64,000 nucleotides of DNA from Bacteroidia bacterium (GTDB lineage: Bacteria; Bacteroidota; Bacteroidia; Flavobacteriales; Flavobacteriaceae): contig JAUIGO010000005.1 in assembly GCA_030429955.1 (NCBI GenBank), positions 1-64,000 of the forward strand, read 5' to 3'. The position numbers and the translations under genes are program-made. Below, piece by piece: positions 5,153 to 33,568 of this stretch (within the stretch, counting starts at the first letter, position 1; every line of letters begins with the position of its first letter). The notes beneath the pieces are model-generated. The model was not told the DNA's origin. It searched no databases and was given only the letters and a program-made list of their open reading frames with translations.

Positions 5153-5261
5153 CGAATTTAAAATGCAGTTTTCATAATAAATAGCTCAAAATTTAGCAAT
5201 GATTTTTTGCGTAATTTTTTAGGCACAGAATTTGTTTATCTTTACCAAAATTACGCTTTTA

Positions 5262-8818: not shown

Positions 8819-10444
8819 ATGGGAAAAGGTTTCTTTAACGTACCAATTGCAGTCAACGAACCTGTAAAAGGATATGCTCCAGGATCTCCAGAACGTGAAG
8901 CTGTATTAAAAGCATACAAAGAGATGTTTAATAGTAAAACTGATGTGCCAATGTACATAAATGGTAAAGACGTTACTACTGGAAATACGAGAACAATGTC
9001 TCCTCCTCACGATCACAAACACATTGTAGGTCAATATCATATTGCTGAGAAATCTCACATTGATGAAGCTATTGCTACGGCTTTGGAAGCAAGAAAAGCT
9101 TGGGCTGAAATGCCATGGGAACAACGTGCAGGAATCTTTTTAAAAGCAGCTGAACTAATCGCTGGACCATACAGAGCTAAAATAAATGCTGCTACCATGA
9201 TTGCGCAATCTAAAACAGTTCATCAAGCTGAAATTGATGCTGCTTGTGAGTTGATAGATTTCTTACGTTTCAATGTGCAGTTTATGACTGACATTTACAT
9301 GGAACAACCAGAAAGCACAAGTGATGCTTGGAACCGTATTGAGTATAGACCACTAGAAGGTTTCACCTATGCTGTAACACCATTTAACTTTACTGCTATT
9401 GCTGGAAACCTTCCTTCATGTATGGCATTAATGGGAAATGTCGTGGTTTGGAAGCCAAGTGATAGTCAGATATTTTCTGCTAAAGTAATCATGGATGTAT
9501 TTAAAGAAGCTGGAGTTCCTGCTGGAGTTATTAATGTCGTGTTTGGTGATCCAGTGATGATTACCAATACTGTAATGGCAAGTCCTGATTTTTCCGGATT
9601 ACATTTTACAGGGTCTACATTTATCTTTAAAGAACTTTGGAAACAAATAGGAAATAACATTCATAACTATAAAACATATCCTAGAATTGTAGGTGAAACA
9701 GGTGGAAAAGATTTTATCGTTGCACACAAAACTGCTAATGCAAAACAAGTAGCAACAGCTATTTCTAGAGGTGCTTTTGAATTTCAAGGACAAAAATGTA
9801 GTGCAGCTTCAAGAGCTTATATTCCATCAAATTTATGGAGTGATGTGAAGACATATTTATTAGAAGATATCAAGTCGTTTAAAATGGGTTCTCCTGAAGA
9901 TTTAAGCAACTTTATTACTGCAGTTATTCACGAAGGTTCTTTTGACAAATTGGCTAAATATATTGACCAAGCTAAAGCTGATAAAGATGCCGAAATTATT
10001 GCTGGTGGAAATTACGACAAGAGTAAAGGTTACTTTATCGAACCTACTGTAATTGTTACCACAAATCCTAAGTACCAAACCATGTGCACTGAGCTATTTG
10101 GCCCAGTCATTACTATATATGTTTATGATGAAAACAAATATTCTGAAACATTAAAACTTGTTGATGAAACTAGTGAGTACGCCTTAACAGGAGCAATTTT
10201 AGCAACTGACAGATATGCTATAGTTGAAGCGACTAAAACATTACAAAACTCTGCTGGAAACTTCTATATTAACGATAAACCAACAGGAGCAGTTGTAGGT
10301 CAACAACCATTTGGTGGCGCAAGAGCCTCAGGAACCAATGATAAAGCAGGCTCTGCTCAAAACTTATCACGTTGGGTGTCTCCAAGAATGATAAAGGAAA
10401 CATTTGTAACTCCAACGGATTACAGATATCCTTTCTTAGGATAA
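8819..10444 (+). CDS. pruA: L-glutamate gamma-semialdehyde dehydrogenase (1-pyrroline-5-carboxylate dehydrogenase)
   Basis: This NAD+-dependent enzyme oxidises glutamate semialdehyde to glutamate in the second step of proline breakdown. The 541-residue protein belongs to the single-domain group 1 P5C dehydrogenases, not the bifunctional PutA. Catalytic residues are Glu293 in VGETGGKDFI and Cys327 in FQGQKCSAASR. The start at 8819 (MGKGFFNVPI) is preferred over upstream non-ATG codons because it lies just after the -7 box with a normal leader. No proline dehydrogenase is next to it. A strong hairpin terminator follows at once. Confidence 0.95.
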   Translation: MGKGFFNVPIAVNEPVKGYAPGSPEREAVLKAYKEMFNSKTDVPMYINGKDVTTGNTRTMSPPHDHKHIVGQYHIAEKSHIDEAIATALEARKAWAEMPWEQRAGIFLKAAELIAGPYRAKINAATMIAQSKTVHQAEIDAACELIDFLRFNVQFMTDIYMEQPESTSDAWNRIEYRPLEGFTYAVTPFNFTAIAGNLPSCMALMGNVVVWKPSDSQIFSAKVIMDVFKEAGVPAGVINVVFGDPVMITNTVMASPDFSGLHFTGSTFIFKELWKQIGNNIHNYKTYPRIVGETGGKDFIVAHKTANAKQVATAISRGAFEFQGQKCSAASRAYIPSNLWSDVKTYLLEDIKSFKMGSPEDLSNFITAVIHEGSFDKLAKYIDQAKADKDAEIIAGGNYDKSKGYFIEPTVIVTTNPKYQTMCTELFGPVITIYVYDENKYSETLKLVDETSEYALTGAILATDRYAIVEATKTLQNSAGNFYINDKPTGAVVGQQPFGGARASGTNDKAGSAQNLSRWVSPRMIKETFVTPTDYRYPFLG

Positions 10445-18181: not shown

Positions 18182-19531
18182 TTAGTAGAAAAACTTCTCG
18201 ACTTTTTTAATGGATTGCGGTAAACAACAAACAACAATGCGATCACCAGCTTGTATTTTAAAATCACCCAAAGCTGTAATACCATGTCCATTTCTTATTA
18301 CGCCTCCAATAATTGCAGATCTTGGAAAATCTAAATCCTTTATAAGGTTATCACAAATTTTGGAAGTTGGTTTTACAATAAACTCCAAAAGTTCAGCATC
18401 CATATTGTTTAGTTTTGTCATGGCAACTACTTCCCCTCTTCTAATGTACCTAAATATATTATTTGCCGCCAATAATTTTTTATTGATAATGGTATCAATA
18501 CCTATAGAATGTGATAATTCAAAATAATCAATATTTTCTACCAATGCCACCGTTTTTTTAACGCCTTTGGATTTTGCTACCAAACAAGACATGATATTGG
18601 TTTCAGAGTTACCAGTAACAGAAATAAAAGCATCCATATCTTCAATGTTTTCTTCTTCAAGAAGCTCAACATTACGTCCATCACCATTAATTACTAAAGT
18701 ATTTGGCAGTTCATCGGCAAGATCAAAAGCTCTGTCCTTTTCTTTTTCAATCAATTTAATGTTAAATTTATTGTCAGTAAGGTCACGCGCTGTCTTTGAT
18801 CCAATTTTTCCACCTCCAAGAATCATTACATTTTTTATATCTGTTTTTATTTTTCCTGTAAGTCTGCACAATTCTTCGTCTCCTCCCTTCGAGGTAATAA
18901 ACACCACATGATCGCCTTCTTTCAATACTGTATCGCCTCTAGGAATGATGGTTAAATGGGAACCAAAACGCTGAATCGCAATAGGTATAAAATGTACTTC
19001 TGGCATCAATTTGGCTGCATCCTTTACCGATTTATCAACAATTTTAGCAGTTCTTGAGAGATTTAGGCCAAGCATTGTCAATGCTCCATCCTCAAAGGCA
19101 TAAGTATCATTAAAAACCGATTGGTTTAGTAATAATTCTATTTCAGATGCAGCTAGAGATTCAGGTGAAATAAGCTCATCTATACCAAATCTTGCAAAAC
19201 CGACTTCTTCTTTCATATCAATGAATTCCGTATTGGAAATTCTAGCAATTGTTTGCGTAGCACCAAGCTGTTTTGCTATTACACAAGCTGTAATATTAGT
19301 GGTTTCTGAAGATGTTACTGCAATAAATAACGAGGTGTCTTTTATTCTTGCTTCTTTAAGAATAGCAATTGATGTAGCATCACCTTTGATGACTTTTATG
19401 TCTAAATGAGAATCTGCATAAATAAGACTTTCCTTTTTTGAATCTATGAGAGTGATTTCTTGAGATTCATAAGATAATAATTTTGCCAAATGAAATCCTA
19501 CTTCACCTGCTCCAGCAATTATTATTTTCAT
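18182..19531 (-). CDS. trkA: Trk potassium uptake regulatory subunit TrkA
   Basis: TrkA is the cytosolic RCK protein that binds NAD(H) or ATP/ADP and gates TrkH. The 449 residues contain two tandem halves, each with a Rossmann RCK_N domain and an RCK_C domain: GAGEVG at 7-12 starts the first, ILGGGKIG near 231 starts the second. RCK_C domains of K+ channels and transporters bind c-di-AMP in several Gram-positive bacteria; a c-di-AMP synthase gene (cdaA) is present elsewhere in this window, but binding here is only a possibility. Confidence 0.94.
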   Translation of the reverse strand: MKIIIAGAGEVGFHLAKLLSYESQEITLIDSKKESLIYADSHLDIKVIKGDATSIAILKEARIKDTSLFIAVTSSETTNITACVIAKQLGATQTIARISNTEFIDMKEEVGFARFGIDELISPESLAASEIELLLNQSVFNDTYAFEDGALTMLGLNLSRTAKIVDKSVKDAAKLMPEVHFIPIAIQRFGSHLTIIPRGDTVLKEGDHVVFITSKGGDEELCRLTGKIKTDIKNVMILGGGKIGSKTARDLTDNKFNIKLIEKEKDRAFDLADELPNTLVINGDGRNVELLEEENIEDMDAFISVTGNSETNIMSCLVAKSKGVKKTVALVENIDYFELSHSIGIDTIINKKLLAANNIFRYIRRGEVVAMTKLNNMDAELLEFIVKPTSKICDNLIKDLDFPRSAIIGGVIRNGHGITALGDFKIQAGDRIVVCCLPQSIKKVEKFFY

Positions 19532-19556
19532 GTATTATTGTAATTAAAAAGATGTG

Positions 19557-19564
19557 CAAATATA
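19557..19564 (-). promoter_or_regulatory. -7 box for trkA-trkH
   Basis: The minus strand reads TATATTTG followed by CA, an exact and common form of the Bacteroidota -7 element, 25 bases upstream of the trkA ATG. Confidence 0.6.
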
Positions 19565-19638
19565 ATTTAATTTTAGGGATTTGTCGCTGAAATCCATTTC
19601 TTTGCACAATTAACAAAGTTATTTTAGCCCTTTTACCA

Positions 19639-20370
19639 ATGTCTGAAAAAGTAAAGCCTTATAAAAACAGTAACCTGAGCAAAAAAGAACAGGTCACGCA
19701 AATGTTTGATACCATTTCAAAAGAATATGACGATCTCAATCGTGTTATCTCCTTTGGTATTGATGTAAAATGGCGAAAAAAAGTAGTTTCCATTGTTGGG
19801 CAACAAAAACCTGATAGAGTGTTGGATATTGCAACAGGAACTGGAGATTTGGCGATAAATCTTGCAAAAACCAGCGCTAAAAAAATTGTTGGGTTTGACA
19901 TTAGCCCAGGAATGCTTGAAGTTGGCAATAAAAAAATCATCCAAAAAAAATTGCAAGATAAAATTGAAATGGTATTGGGAGATTCTGAAAAGATGCCTTT
20001 TGATGATAATTCTTTTGATGCTATAACAGTTGCTTTTGGAGTAAGAAATTTTGAAAATTTAGAACAAGGGTTATCAGAAATTTTAAGAGTGCTTAAACCT
20101 AAGGGTATTTTTGTTATTCTGGAAACCTCAGTGCCTACAAAAACGCCGTACAAACAAGGCTATACATTTTATACCAAACGTATTTTACCTATGATTGGGA
20201 AACTTTTTTCAAAAGATAAAGTTGCCTATAATTATTTAAGTGAATCTGCTTCTGTTTTTCCTTATGGTGAGGCACTCAACAATATTTTACGTAAAATTGG
20301 GTTTATAAATGCGGAAGCTCTACCTCAAACATTTGGTGTAGCTACCATTTATACAGCATCTAAATCTTAA
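19639..20370 (+). CDS. ubiE: Demethylmenaquinone methyltransferase
   Basis: UbiE/MenG performs the last step of menaquinone synthesis, C-methylation of demethylmenaquinone with S-adenosylmethionine. At 243 residues it has the normal size. Motif I is [12 protein letters not shown] (about 62-73), followed by [10 protein letters not shown] and by the family signature VAFGVRNFE. Flavobacteria use menaquinone, the likely acceptor for Na+-NQR at the start of this window, so the menaquinone role is favoured over ubiquinone. The porT gene starts 1 base after its stop. Confidence 0.95.
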
Positions 20371-31093: not shown

Positions 31094-31957
31094 ATGAGAC
31101 AACTTAAAATTACGAAGCAGGTTACCAATAGAGAAACTGCATCGTTAGACAAATACCTACAAGAAATTGGAAAAGTTGACTTAATTACAGCAGACGAAGA
31201 AGTAGAATTGGCACAGCGAATTAAAGCTGGCGATCAGATAGCTTTAGAAAAATTGACTAAAGCTAACTTGCGTTTTGTAGTTTCTGTAGCAAAGCAATAC
31301 CAAAATCAAGGTTTAACATTACCAGATTTGATAAATGAAGGTAATTTAGGGCTCATCAAAGCAGCACAACGTTTTGATGAAACTCGTGGTTTTAAATTTA
31401 TATCGTATGCTGTTTGGTGGATTCGTCAATCCATTTTACAAGCATTGGCAGAGCAATCTCGTATTGTACGTTTGCCTTTGAACAAAATTGGTTCTATTAA
31501 CAAAATCAATAAAACCTATGCATTCTTAGAGCAATCTCACGAGCGTCCACCAAGTGCGGAAGAAATTGCTAAAGAACTGGATATGACTATTAATGACGTA
31601 AAAGAATCGATGAAGAATTCTGGACGTCACGTCAGTATGGATGCGCCTTTAGTTGAAGGTGAAGATTCAAACCTCTACGATGTACTTCGTAGTGGCGAAT
31701 CTCCAAATCCTGATAAAGATTTATTGCACGAATCATTACGTACAGAAATTGAACGTGCTTTAGAAACATTAACACCTCGTGAAGCAGATGTTATTCGTTT
31801 GTACTTTGGCTTAGGAAATCAACATCCTATGACCTTAGAAGAAATTGGCGAAACGTTTGATTTAACTCGTGAGCGTGTAAGACAAATTAAAGAAAAAGCT
31901 ATTCGTAGATTAAAACATACGTCTAGAAGTAAAATATTAAAAACATATTTAGGATAG
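31094..31957 (+). CDS. rpoD: Primary sigma factor RpoD/SigA
   Basis: This is the housekeeping sigma-70 of the cell. At 287 residues it is the short Bacteroidota form, lacking region 1.1 and the large non-conserved region of the E. coli protein. Region 1.2 starts near residue 15 ([16 protein letters not shown]), region 2 shows [27 protein letters not shown], region 3 covers ~130-200, and region 4 ends with the helix-turn-helix [27 protein letters not shown]. Such sigma factors recognise the TTTG/TAnnTTTG promoters seen across this window. Two tandem hairpins follow. Confidence 0.97.
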
Positions 31958-31991
31958 TATTTTGTATATTTACAACTAAATAATGACTACA

Positions 31992-32018
31992 AACAGTTAT
32001 CATAACTGTTCGTTTTTT
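31992..32018 (+). terminator. First terminator after rpoD
   Basis: AACAGTT and AACTGTT pair around a five-base loop and are followed, after CG, by six Ts. It starts 35 bases after the rpoD stop. Confidence 0.75.
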
Positions 32019-32029
32019 GATTGATGAAA

Positions 32030-32061
32030 GAACCCAGAGCTGATTACTCTGGGTTCATTTT
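32030..32061 (+). terminator. Second hairpin after rpoD
   Basis: GAACCCAGAG and CTCTGGGTTC form a 10-bp perfect stem with a seven-base loop, followed by a short T-rich stretch (ATTTTGT). Together with the hairpin just upstream it makes a tandem terminator. Confidence 0.7.
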
Positions 32062-32070
32062 GTAAAGCCC

Positions 32071-32101
32071 ATCCCTAAATCCCTTCCCAAAGGGAAGGGA
32101 C
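32071..32101. repeat. C/G-rich hairpin repeat upstream of rpe
   Basis: ATCCCTAAATCCCTTCCC then AAA then GGGAAGGG makes an 8-bp perfect stem in otherwise AT-rich DNA. From memory, near-identical strings recur between genes in many Flavobacteriaceae genomes, so I treat it as a dispersed repeat and not as a third terminator. Only one copy is in this window. Confidence 0.55.
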
Positions 32102-32117
32102 TATGAAAAGACTTTTC

Positions 32118-32125
32118 TATCTTTG
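32118..32125 (+). promoter_or_regulatory. -7 box for rpe
   Basis: TATCTTTG followed by CA is a standard -7 element 19 bases before the ATG at 32145. It argues against the in-frame ATG at 32103 as the start, because that codon lies upstream of the box. Confidence 0.55.
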
Positions 32126-32144
32126 CACAAACAAACTACAACTA

Positions 32145-32703
32145 ATGAGTAAATTAATTGCACCTTCAATCCTAGCAGCCGATTTTGCCAACCTTCAACA
32201 CGACATAGAAATGGTAAACCAAAGTGAAGCTGACTGGTTTCATATTGATATTATGGATGGCGTTTTTGTGCCAAACATTTCCTTCGGAATGCCAGTTTTA
32301 AAAGCCTGTACATTACGAAGCTTGCACACACTTACACAGAACGCTTCAAGCCATAAAAGCAGAAGGCATGCAAGCAGGAGTTGCATTGAATCCACATACT
32401 AACATTAATGTATTGGAAGACACCATTAATGATATTGATTTGGTTTGCCTGATGAGTGTAAATCCTGGATTTGGAGGACAAAGTTTTATTGAAAACACAT
32501 ACAACAAAGTAAAACAGCTTAAAGCGTTAATTGAGCGTAAAGGTGCTAACACCAAAATTGAAATTGATGGTGGAGTTACTGACAAAAACGCCAAACAATT
32601 GGTTGATGCTGGAGCAGATGTATTGGTTGCTGGTAGTTTTGTGTTTAGAAGTGAAAATTCTTTGGATATAATTAAGGATTTGAAAGCGATTGCTAATAGT
32701 TAG
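32145..32703 (+). pseudogene. rpe: Ribulose-phosphate 3-epimerase, broken by an internal deletion and frameshift
   Basis: Rpe interconverts ribulose-5-phosphate and xylulose-5-phosphate. The first frame (MSKLIAPSILAADFANLQ to GMPVLKA, ending at 32306) is a perfect Rpe N-terminus. The next bases, read one frame over from 32308, give VHYEACTHLHRTLQAIKAEG and continue as a perfect Rpe C-terminus to IANS. Compared with the family as I remember it, about 34 codons between LKA and VHYEA are missing, including the metal-binding histidine of the D-V-H-L-M motif, and the loss is not a multiple of three. Intact parts still hold HIDIMDG, NPGFGGQ and DGGV. Either a recent pseudogene or an assembly error. 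Confidence 0.88.
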
Positions 32704-32728
32704 TAGTTTTATAAAACTCAAAATAGAG

Positions 32729-33181
32729 ATGGAGCTTAAGCCAAATGTTGGTCTTGAAAATATAAAATTTGGAATGTTCCAAAAAATGATATATGAAACT
32801 CTTGGATTACCTGATAAAATTAGGGAAGATGAGGATGACTCAGATAATATTTATTTAGAATATAATAAACTAAAGATTCGATTAACAATTTATAAAAACG
32901 AGGATTTTAGATTAGGTTATTTATGCACTTCTAATCCTAATTTGACTTATAACAATTTGAAATTAATTGATTGTGACGTTGATTGGGTAAAAGATAAAGT
33001 CTTTGGTAATTTAATTCATAATTGGGAAATTGATAACTATGATACTTTCTCTACTCATGGAGACGACAAATATTGGATTACTCTTAATGTTGAATATGGA
33101 AGAGTTATTAGTTTAGAATTGGGAGCTCCTTGGAAAAATGAAGAAGAATATGATTGGCCTAATCAACTGGAGGTTAAATAA
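32729..33181 (+). CDS. Uncharacterised protein
   Basis: I do not recognise this 150-residue protein. The start at 32729 (MELKPNVGLENIKFG) is the first ATG in frame. It is soluble, acidic, and contains the segment IKFGMFQKMIYETLGLPDKIRED, a pattern seen in small domains of the form 'KFG-hydrophobic-helix-LG-x-P-D' that occur in immunity-like and SmpA-like proteins; this is only a loose resemblance. The rest alternates short beta strands with many Asn, Asp and Trp. It follows rpe by 25 bases and could share its transcript. Confidence 0.65.
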   Translation: MELKPNVGLENIKFGMFQKMIYETLGLPDKIREDEDDSDNIYLEYNKLKIRLTIYKNEDFRLGYLCTSNPNLTYNNLKLIDCDVDWVKDKVFGNLIHNWEIDNYDTFSTHGDDKYWITLNVEYGRVISLELGAPWKNEEEYDWPNQLEVK

Positions 33182-33217
33182 TGTCAGAACACAATCTTTT
33201 AGCAATACTAAAGAATT

Positions 33218-33568
33218 TCAATTAAACCAAACCGCATAACGTTGTCGTCTTAACTCAAAAGCCAAGGTTTCTTCCATTTTTAACGCTTCTGCTCTAGTAG
33301 TAATTGGATTGATATGATTATAGAGACTAGGTCTTAAGTACATGCCATATTTTTCAACAATATTAGACGAAATTTTATAACCCTTTTTATTTCTGTAACC
33401 TGTTTTATGTTGCTCAAAACGTTCTTTTGGTGTTTTGCTCGTCATACCAACATACAAACATTCTAACACGCCATTAAACTGAGGATTGGCTTCCCTAAAC
33501 TTTCGATTTTCTGAAAACACACGTTTGGAGAGCTCTACAACATAAATATAATATTGCACCTTAGCCAT
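33218..33568 (-). CDS. GIY-YIG-like domain protein
   Basis: The 116-residue protein begins MAKVQYYIYVVELSKRV and later has CLYVGMTSKTPKERFEQHKTG. The two beta strands (YIYVVEL and LYVGMT) and the following Arg and His fit the GIY-YIG core, where Tyr, Arg and a later Glu form the active site; Glu in KMEETLAFELRR may be that residue. An insert of ~20 residues separates the strands. The function is unknown, as for most stand-alone GIY-YIG proteins. It lies 3 bases downstream of the MtfA-like gene on the same strand. Confidence 0.7.
   Translation of the reverse strand: MAKVQYYIYVVELSKRVFSENRKFREANPQFNGVLECLYVGMTSKTPKERFEQHKTGYRNKKGYKISSNIVEKYGMYLRPSLYNHINPITTRAEALKMEETLAFELRRQRYAVWFN

Follow-up and report, generated by a model that had tools for sequence, protein, structure and literature searches.

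When the oxidative branch of the pentose phosphate pathway is lacking, the ribose-5-phosphate made by transketolase leaves xylulose-5-phosphate, and the sole return route is through ribulose-phosphate 3-epimerase (Rpe). Escherichia coli is an organism that possesses the oxidative branch. An E. coli without rpe does not grow on ribose alone, in an experiment where the gluconate control grew (PMC7669889), and in Campylobacter jejuni, which is without the oxidative branch, both Rpe and RpiB are described as essential (PMC5438104). At the level of the protein, the metal of the Chlamydomonas enzyme is held by four ligands, His72, Asp74, His105 and Asp216 (PMC9978339). A different strand of literature documents spurious pseudogenes that are made by assembly (Cooley and Wright 2024, PMC11017572).

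What, then, is to be made of a draft genome in which rpe is found interrupted? Read literally, the contig would point to a bacterium that lacks an enzyme of central metabolism. The reading favoured here, to which a probability of roughly 0.7 is given, is that rpe is intact in the cells and that the junction in the contig is false or stems from a minority. The species would then have one ordinary working rpe at this locus, and the junction would take 101 bp out of the central part of the gene in the contig. We infer that this junction is unrepresentative of the living cells and that its source may have been an error of assembly, scaffolding or gap closing, or else a read that was chimeric or came from a minority strain. 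The window, that is, the whole stretch of 64,000 nucleotides that was analysed (G000:C48:1-64000), comes from a draft of 3.085 Mb in 121 contigs that is 93.4% complete.

Within the window, rpe spans 32145-32703 on the forward strand, from an ATG at 32145 to a stop at 32701-32703 (Table 1). The original prediction had two partial Rpe frames joined at 32306-32308, and this stands, with the junction now placed at 32306|32307, where the C at 32306 suits either side. As in other members of the family (PF00834, TIGR01163), both pieces match in order, lie beside the sigma factor gene that is found there in the relatives G001 and G002, and keep all 63 of the near-invariant residues that they cover; unlike in those members, one base stands in place of 34 codons and the frame is lost. 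With TIGR01163, the frame of the start codon scores 71.4 bits and the 3' frame 158.3 bits, both below the curated cut-off of 212.6 bits, compared with 283.3 bits for the intact gene of a relative from the same genus. PF00834, with its own lower cut-off of 21.1, gives two separate matches, to positions 2-53 and 86-198 of 198, each above that value. The motifs HIDxMDG, DxHLM and DGGV are thus not to be found in one frame: HIDIMDG and IDGGV lie in different frames, the latter including the DGGV that presumably carries the fourth metal ligand, and DxHLM is absent. Each piece would probably be non-functional on its own.

Table 1. Coordinates of rpe and of the features upstream of it in the window.
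Feature	Coordinates	Strand	Description
Sigma factor gene	31094..31957	+	Intact, upstream of rpe
Terminator-like hairpin	32030..32056	+	Between the sigma factor gene and rpe; consensus match only
rpe 5' piece	32145..32306	+	54 codons, MSKLIAPS...GMPVLKA; HIDIMDG motif retained
ORF from rpe start	32145..32402	+	85 aa: 54 residues of Rpe followed by an out-of-frame stretch that ends at a stop
rpe junction	32306..32307	+	101 bp of the relative absent here; 1-bp ambiguity
rpe 3' piece	32308..32703	+	Other frame, VHYEACTH...IDGGV..., 131 codons plus stop

The size of the gap can be read from G001, the closest relative compared and a genome of the same genus, in which rpe is intact (contig C142, locus L003). 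Window positions 32151-32306 correspond, gap-free and at 90.4% nucleotide identity, to C142 102744-102899, and positions 32306-32658 correspond, again gap-free and at 91.2%, to C142 103000-103352; exactly 101 bp of the G001 gene (L003 1651-1751) is unrepresented in the window rpe, in place of the earlier estimate of about 100 bp. As 101 cannot be divided by three, the frame is lost. The 34 or so residues that had been thought absent between LKA and VHYEA are 34 codons in both L003 and L004, and the shift of frame, which had likewise been predicted, comes down to one leftover base in the window. No microhomology beyond 1 bp is present at the junction when judged against G001. The gene is intact in G002 as well, G001 and G002 having one rpe each, and G003, the one remaining genome of the genus, is 62% complete and has no Rpe match. 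Among the named loci listed, those with a similar Rpe are nearly all from Flavobacteriaceae. A 24-base pattern for the junction has no match in the genome contigs searched, from which records of this genome or of a very near one may be left out. Among the loci compared, a 28-mer that spans the junction is present in only four, all from the window's own genome. A length of 101 bp is common for short reads, which is a lead to which no weight is attached.

A homologue with the same shortened sequence was looked for among the 111 best-matching loci listed (31 from relatives and 80 others, some genomes possibly being shared), and none of the 111 has a gap in the lost segment. Ordinary length variation is therefore ruled out as the cause; in addition, the BLAST indels inside the C48/C142 blocks (40,092 columns) are all of 12 bp or less. 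Nine columns of the segment are identical in at least 110 of these 111 best-matching loci, including the D, H, L, M and I of DxHLMI, and D, H, L and M of DxHLM are each present in all 111. In a gap-free alignment to 7b1w, the histidines of HIDIMDG and DVHLM are separated by 33 residues, the same spacing as that from His72 to His105, and the lost histidine of DVHLM is therefore one of the metal ligands named in PMC9978339, as had been proposed for it.

The two pieces that are left do not resemble a gene in decay. None of the 63 near-invariant columns that they cover, as defined on the best-matching comparison loci, has changed, no further stop or indel is found within them, and relative to L003 the window rpe has a dN/dS of 0.10 at a dS of 0.48, with third positions holding 42 of the 61 nucleotide differences. 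Constraint is much stronger on the sigma factor gene next to it, at 0.009, so that rpe has at no time been one of the slowest genes. When the changes are assigned to branches, 15 silent and 8 replacement changes fall on the window branch and 12 and 11 on that of L003, counts which are rough because the outgroup, G002, is saturated at silent sites. With the same reservation about the outgroup, so few replacements would be expected with P ~0.013 had the gene been neutral for 30% of the window branch, with P ~0.20 for 20% and with P ~0.88 for 10%. The relaxed selection or further lesions of a decayed pseudogene are thus not seen, and the data are compatible with a loss that falls within the final 10-20% of the branch. 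The unchanged columns, the dN/dS and the branch test therefore indicate that the lesion is either young or absent from the cells.

The state of the rest of the contig was judged from 65 open reading frames of G001, of at least 90 amino acids, whose best match lies on the window contig at 60% amino acid identity or more; the compared part is the ~41 kb common to C142, plus parts common to C80 and C76. Sixty of the 65 genes run to full length on the contig (90% or more) without a stop, and rpe is judged to be the only real break among the five exceptions, which, judged from coordinates, include a gene truncated where the contig ends, a 97-aa ORF whose first 17 residues differ and a partial match that is probably to a paralogue. 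An apparent second break (19483-20367, with a stop at 19588) was dismissed, as it lies in the relative's early TTG start and the window ORF at 19639-20370 is intact. Inside called ORFs there are four 1-bp indels, of which those at 5258 and 8803 are within 30 bp of called starts and those at 9625 and 9637 cancel each other; the longer differences between C48 and C142 fall between aligned blocks. The contig holds no N characters and, with one judged real break in 65 genes, it cannot be described in general as an error-rich assembly. Repeats in L003 1600-1800 amount to one direct pair (14 nt, 79%) within the lost segment and a weak inverted pair (11 nt, 82%), the left arm of which ends next to the left breakpoint; judged on this sequence of the relative, neither pair was counted as a mechanism for repeat-mediated collapse or slippage. 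Like the spurious pseudogenes of PMC11017572, as far as its available text describes them, rpe is here an interrupted gene that otherwise looks selected. Unlike those, which were counted from frameshifts and internal stops, it has an internal deletion of ~100 bp and is the one gene hit on an otherwise clean contig. A broken rpe of this kind is an ordinary quality-control finding, and when a single housekeeping gene is interrupted in a draft assembly, metabolic loss is not the conclusion to draw.

The cost of such a loss depends upon the pathway that surrounds the enzyme. G000 has transketolase, transaldolase and RpiB. No match to 6-phosphogluconate dehydrogenase was found in G000, one of the four genomes of the genus (G002) having this enzyme, and no match to glucose-6-phosphate dehydrogenase (G6PD) was found in any of the four, G000 included. 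The G6PD C-terminal domain is present in 14 of the 98 genomes searched and undetected in 84, and the oxidative branch therefore seems rare in this set. One of those 84 is the genome of the window itself; of the others, 77 have a full-length Rpe and six show no match. Altogether an Rpe match is absent from six of the 99 genomes searched (G003, G007, G062, G074, G080 and G096), or from three of the 85 that are at least 90% complete, namely G007 (93%), G080 (97%) and G074, which is listed as 100% complete but has 0.3 Mb; the remaining three are 62%, 76% and 83% complete. The three well-complete genomes speak mildly against Rpe being indispensable. As neither G6PD nor 6-phosphogluconate dehydrogenase is detected in G000, the loss of Rpe should be very costly, and the lack of a detectable G6PD in the genus makes Rpe more important, not less. 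The original view that the loss would be costly agrees with this, and with the essentiality of Rpe in C. jejuni reported in PMC5438104. A literature search on Flavobacteriaceae without the oxidative branch found nothing. A stable rpe-null lineage is hard to believe here.

The explanations first offered for the broken gene were a second rpe, a bypass and an error in the contig. When G000 was searched for another rpe, as had been suggested, PF00834 and the relative's protein matched just the two window pieces, and no second gene was found in this 93.4% complete genome. That an intact second copy sits in the unassembled part is very improbable. In its favour, the draft is incomplete and in 121 contigs, and two full-length copies do occur in 2 of the 99 searched genomes (G016 and G073); against it, two copies are rare in the set and G001 and G002 have one each. 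A move of the missing piece to another place in G000 was rejected, the relative's 101-bp segment finding only matches of chance size there, the best of them 23 bp (E 0.012). A bypass of Rpe by the cells is unlikely because no oxidative branch is detected in G000. That the cells are truly without Rpe, with a non-homologous enzyme or route in its place, would fit with its occasional absence from good assemblies (3/85), also in genomes without G6PD, but the genomes that are 62%, 76% and 83% complete may merely miss sequence and both window pieces still look selected. We know of no established replacement for Rpe from outside its family, and a substitution of this sort is considered a very distant prospect. 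Just as implausible is that, with neither Rpe nor an oxidative branch, xylulose-5-phosphate and ribose-5-phosphate might be balanced by a novel route or by imported ribosides. The contig error is the best supported of the three explanations, although it is not proven, and among them a real deletion that is very recent or confined to a minority had not been separated out as a fourth.

That fourth option contains the main rival, in which the 101 bp were genuinely and very recently deleted and the deletion is fixed, or common, among the cells sampled. This would be an rpe-null lineage that is either sustained by cross-feeding or by nucleosides or aromatic amino acids from outside, or dying out. 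The rival draws on the otherwise clean contig, on sharp breakpoints whose ambiguity of 1 bp at most is compatible with illegitimate deletion, and on an rpe that has not yet decayed, as expected of a very recent event. It is nonetheless unlikely, though to be taken seriously: no oxidative branch is detected that would relieve the loss, Rpe is essential in C. jejuni with the same lack (PMC5438104), and it would take luck to sample so young a lesion. E. coli without rpe fails on ribose alone (PMC7669889), but this species has the oxidative branch. The false or minority junction is favoured by the 0/63 changed columns, the dN/dS of 0.10, the 42/61 third-position differences and the 60/65 intact genes, together with the undetected oxidative branch, the 77 of 84 G6PD-less genomes with a full-length Rpe, the essentiality in C. 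jejuni (PMC5438104) and the artefactual pseudogenes on record (PMC11017572). What counts most against it is the clean state of the contig, with no N and no other judged break, together with the position of the breakpoints outside any repeat from which a collapse could follow; the lack of an Rpe match in 3/85 well-complete genomes is a further point. Furthermore, a de Bruijn assembler normally requires a read that spans a junction, and some junction-bearing molecule may therefore have existed.

The sigma factor gene, which we take to be of the rpoD type, precedes rpe also in G002 and, with one extra gene between, in G001, so that the neighbour is shared. The region 31900-33300 has two terminator-like sites, by consensus match only, against a shuffle mean of 0.6. 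A phage origin was also considered and rejected. A blastn search of 31900-33200 against phage records returned three unannotated records from human faecal samples, with partial matches of 65-81% identity; the matches fall in the two rpe pieces, and they are taken as ordinary rpe similarity. In G001 the interval between the sigma factor gene and rpe holds a BLUF blue-light-sensor gene (PF04940; L003 1026-1430), which is absent from the window (31958-32144) and from G002. The ORF after rpe also differs, the one in the window (32690-33181) being without a Pfam match and without a match on C142, and rpe is therefore flanked by two sites of gene-content turnover. Upstream of rpe, at 32081-32099 in the gap that follows the sigma factor gene, lies a 19-nt imperfect palindrome, CCCTTCCCAAAGGGAAGGG, which is the single site of its kind in the window at up to three mismatches.
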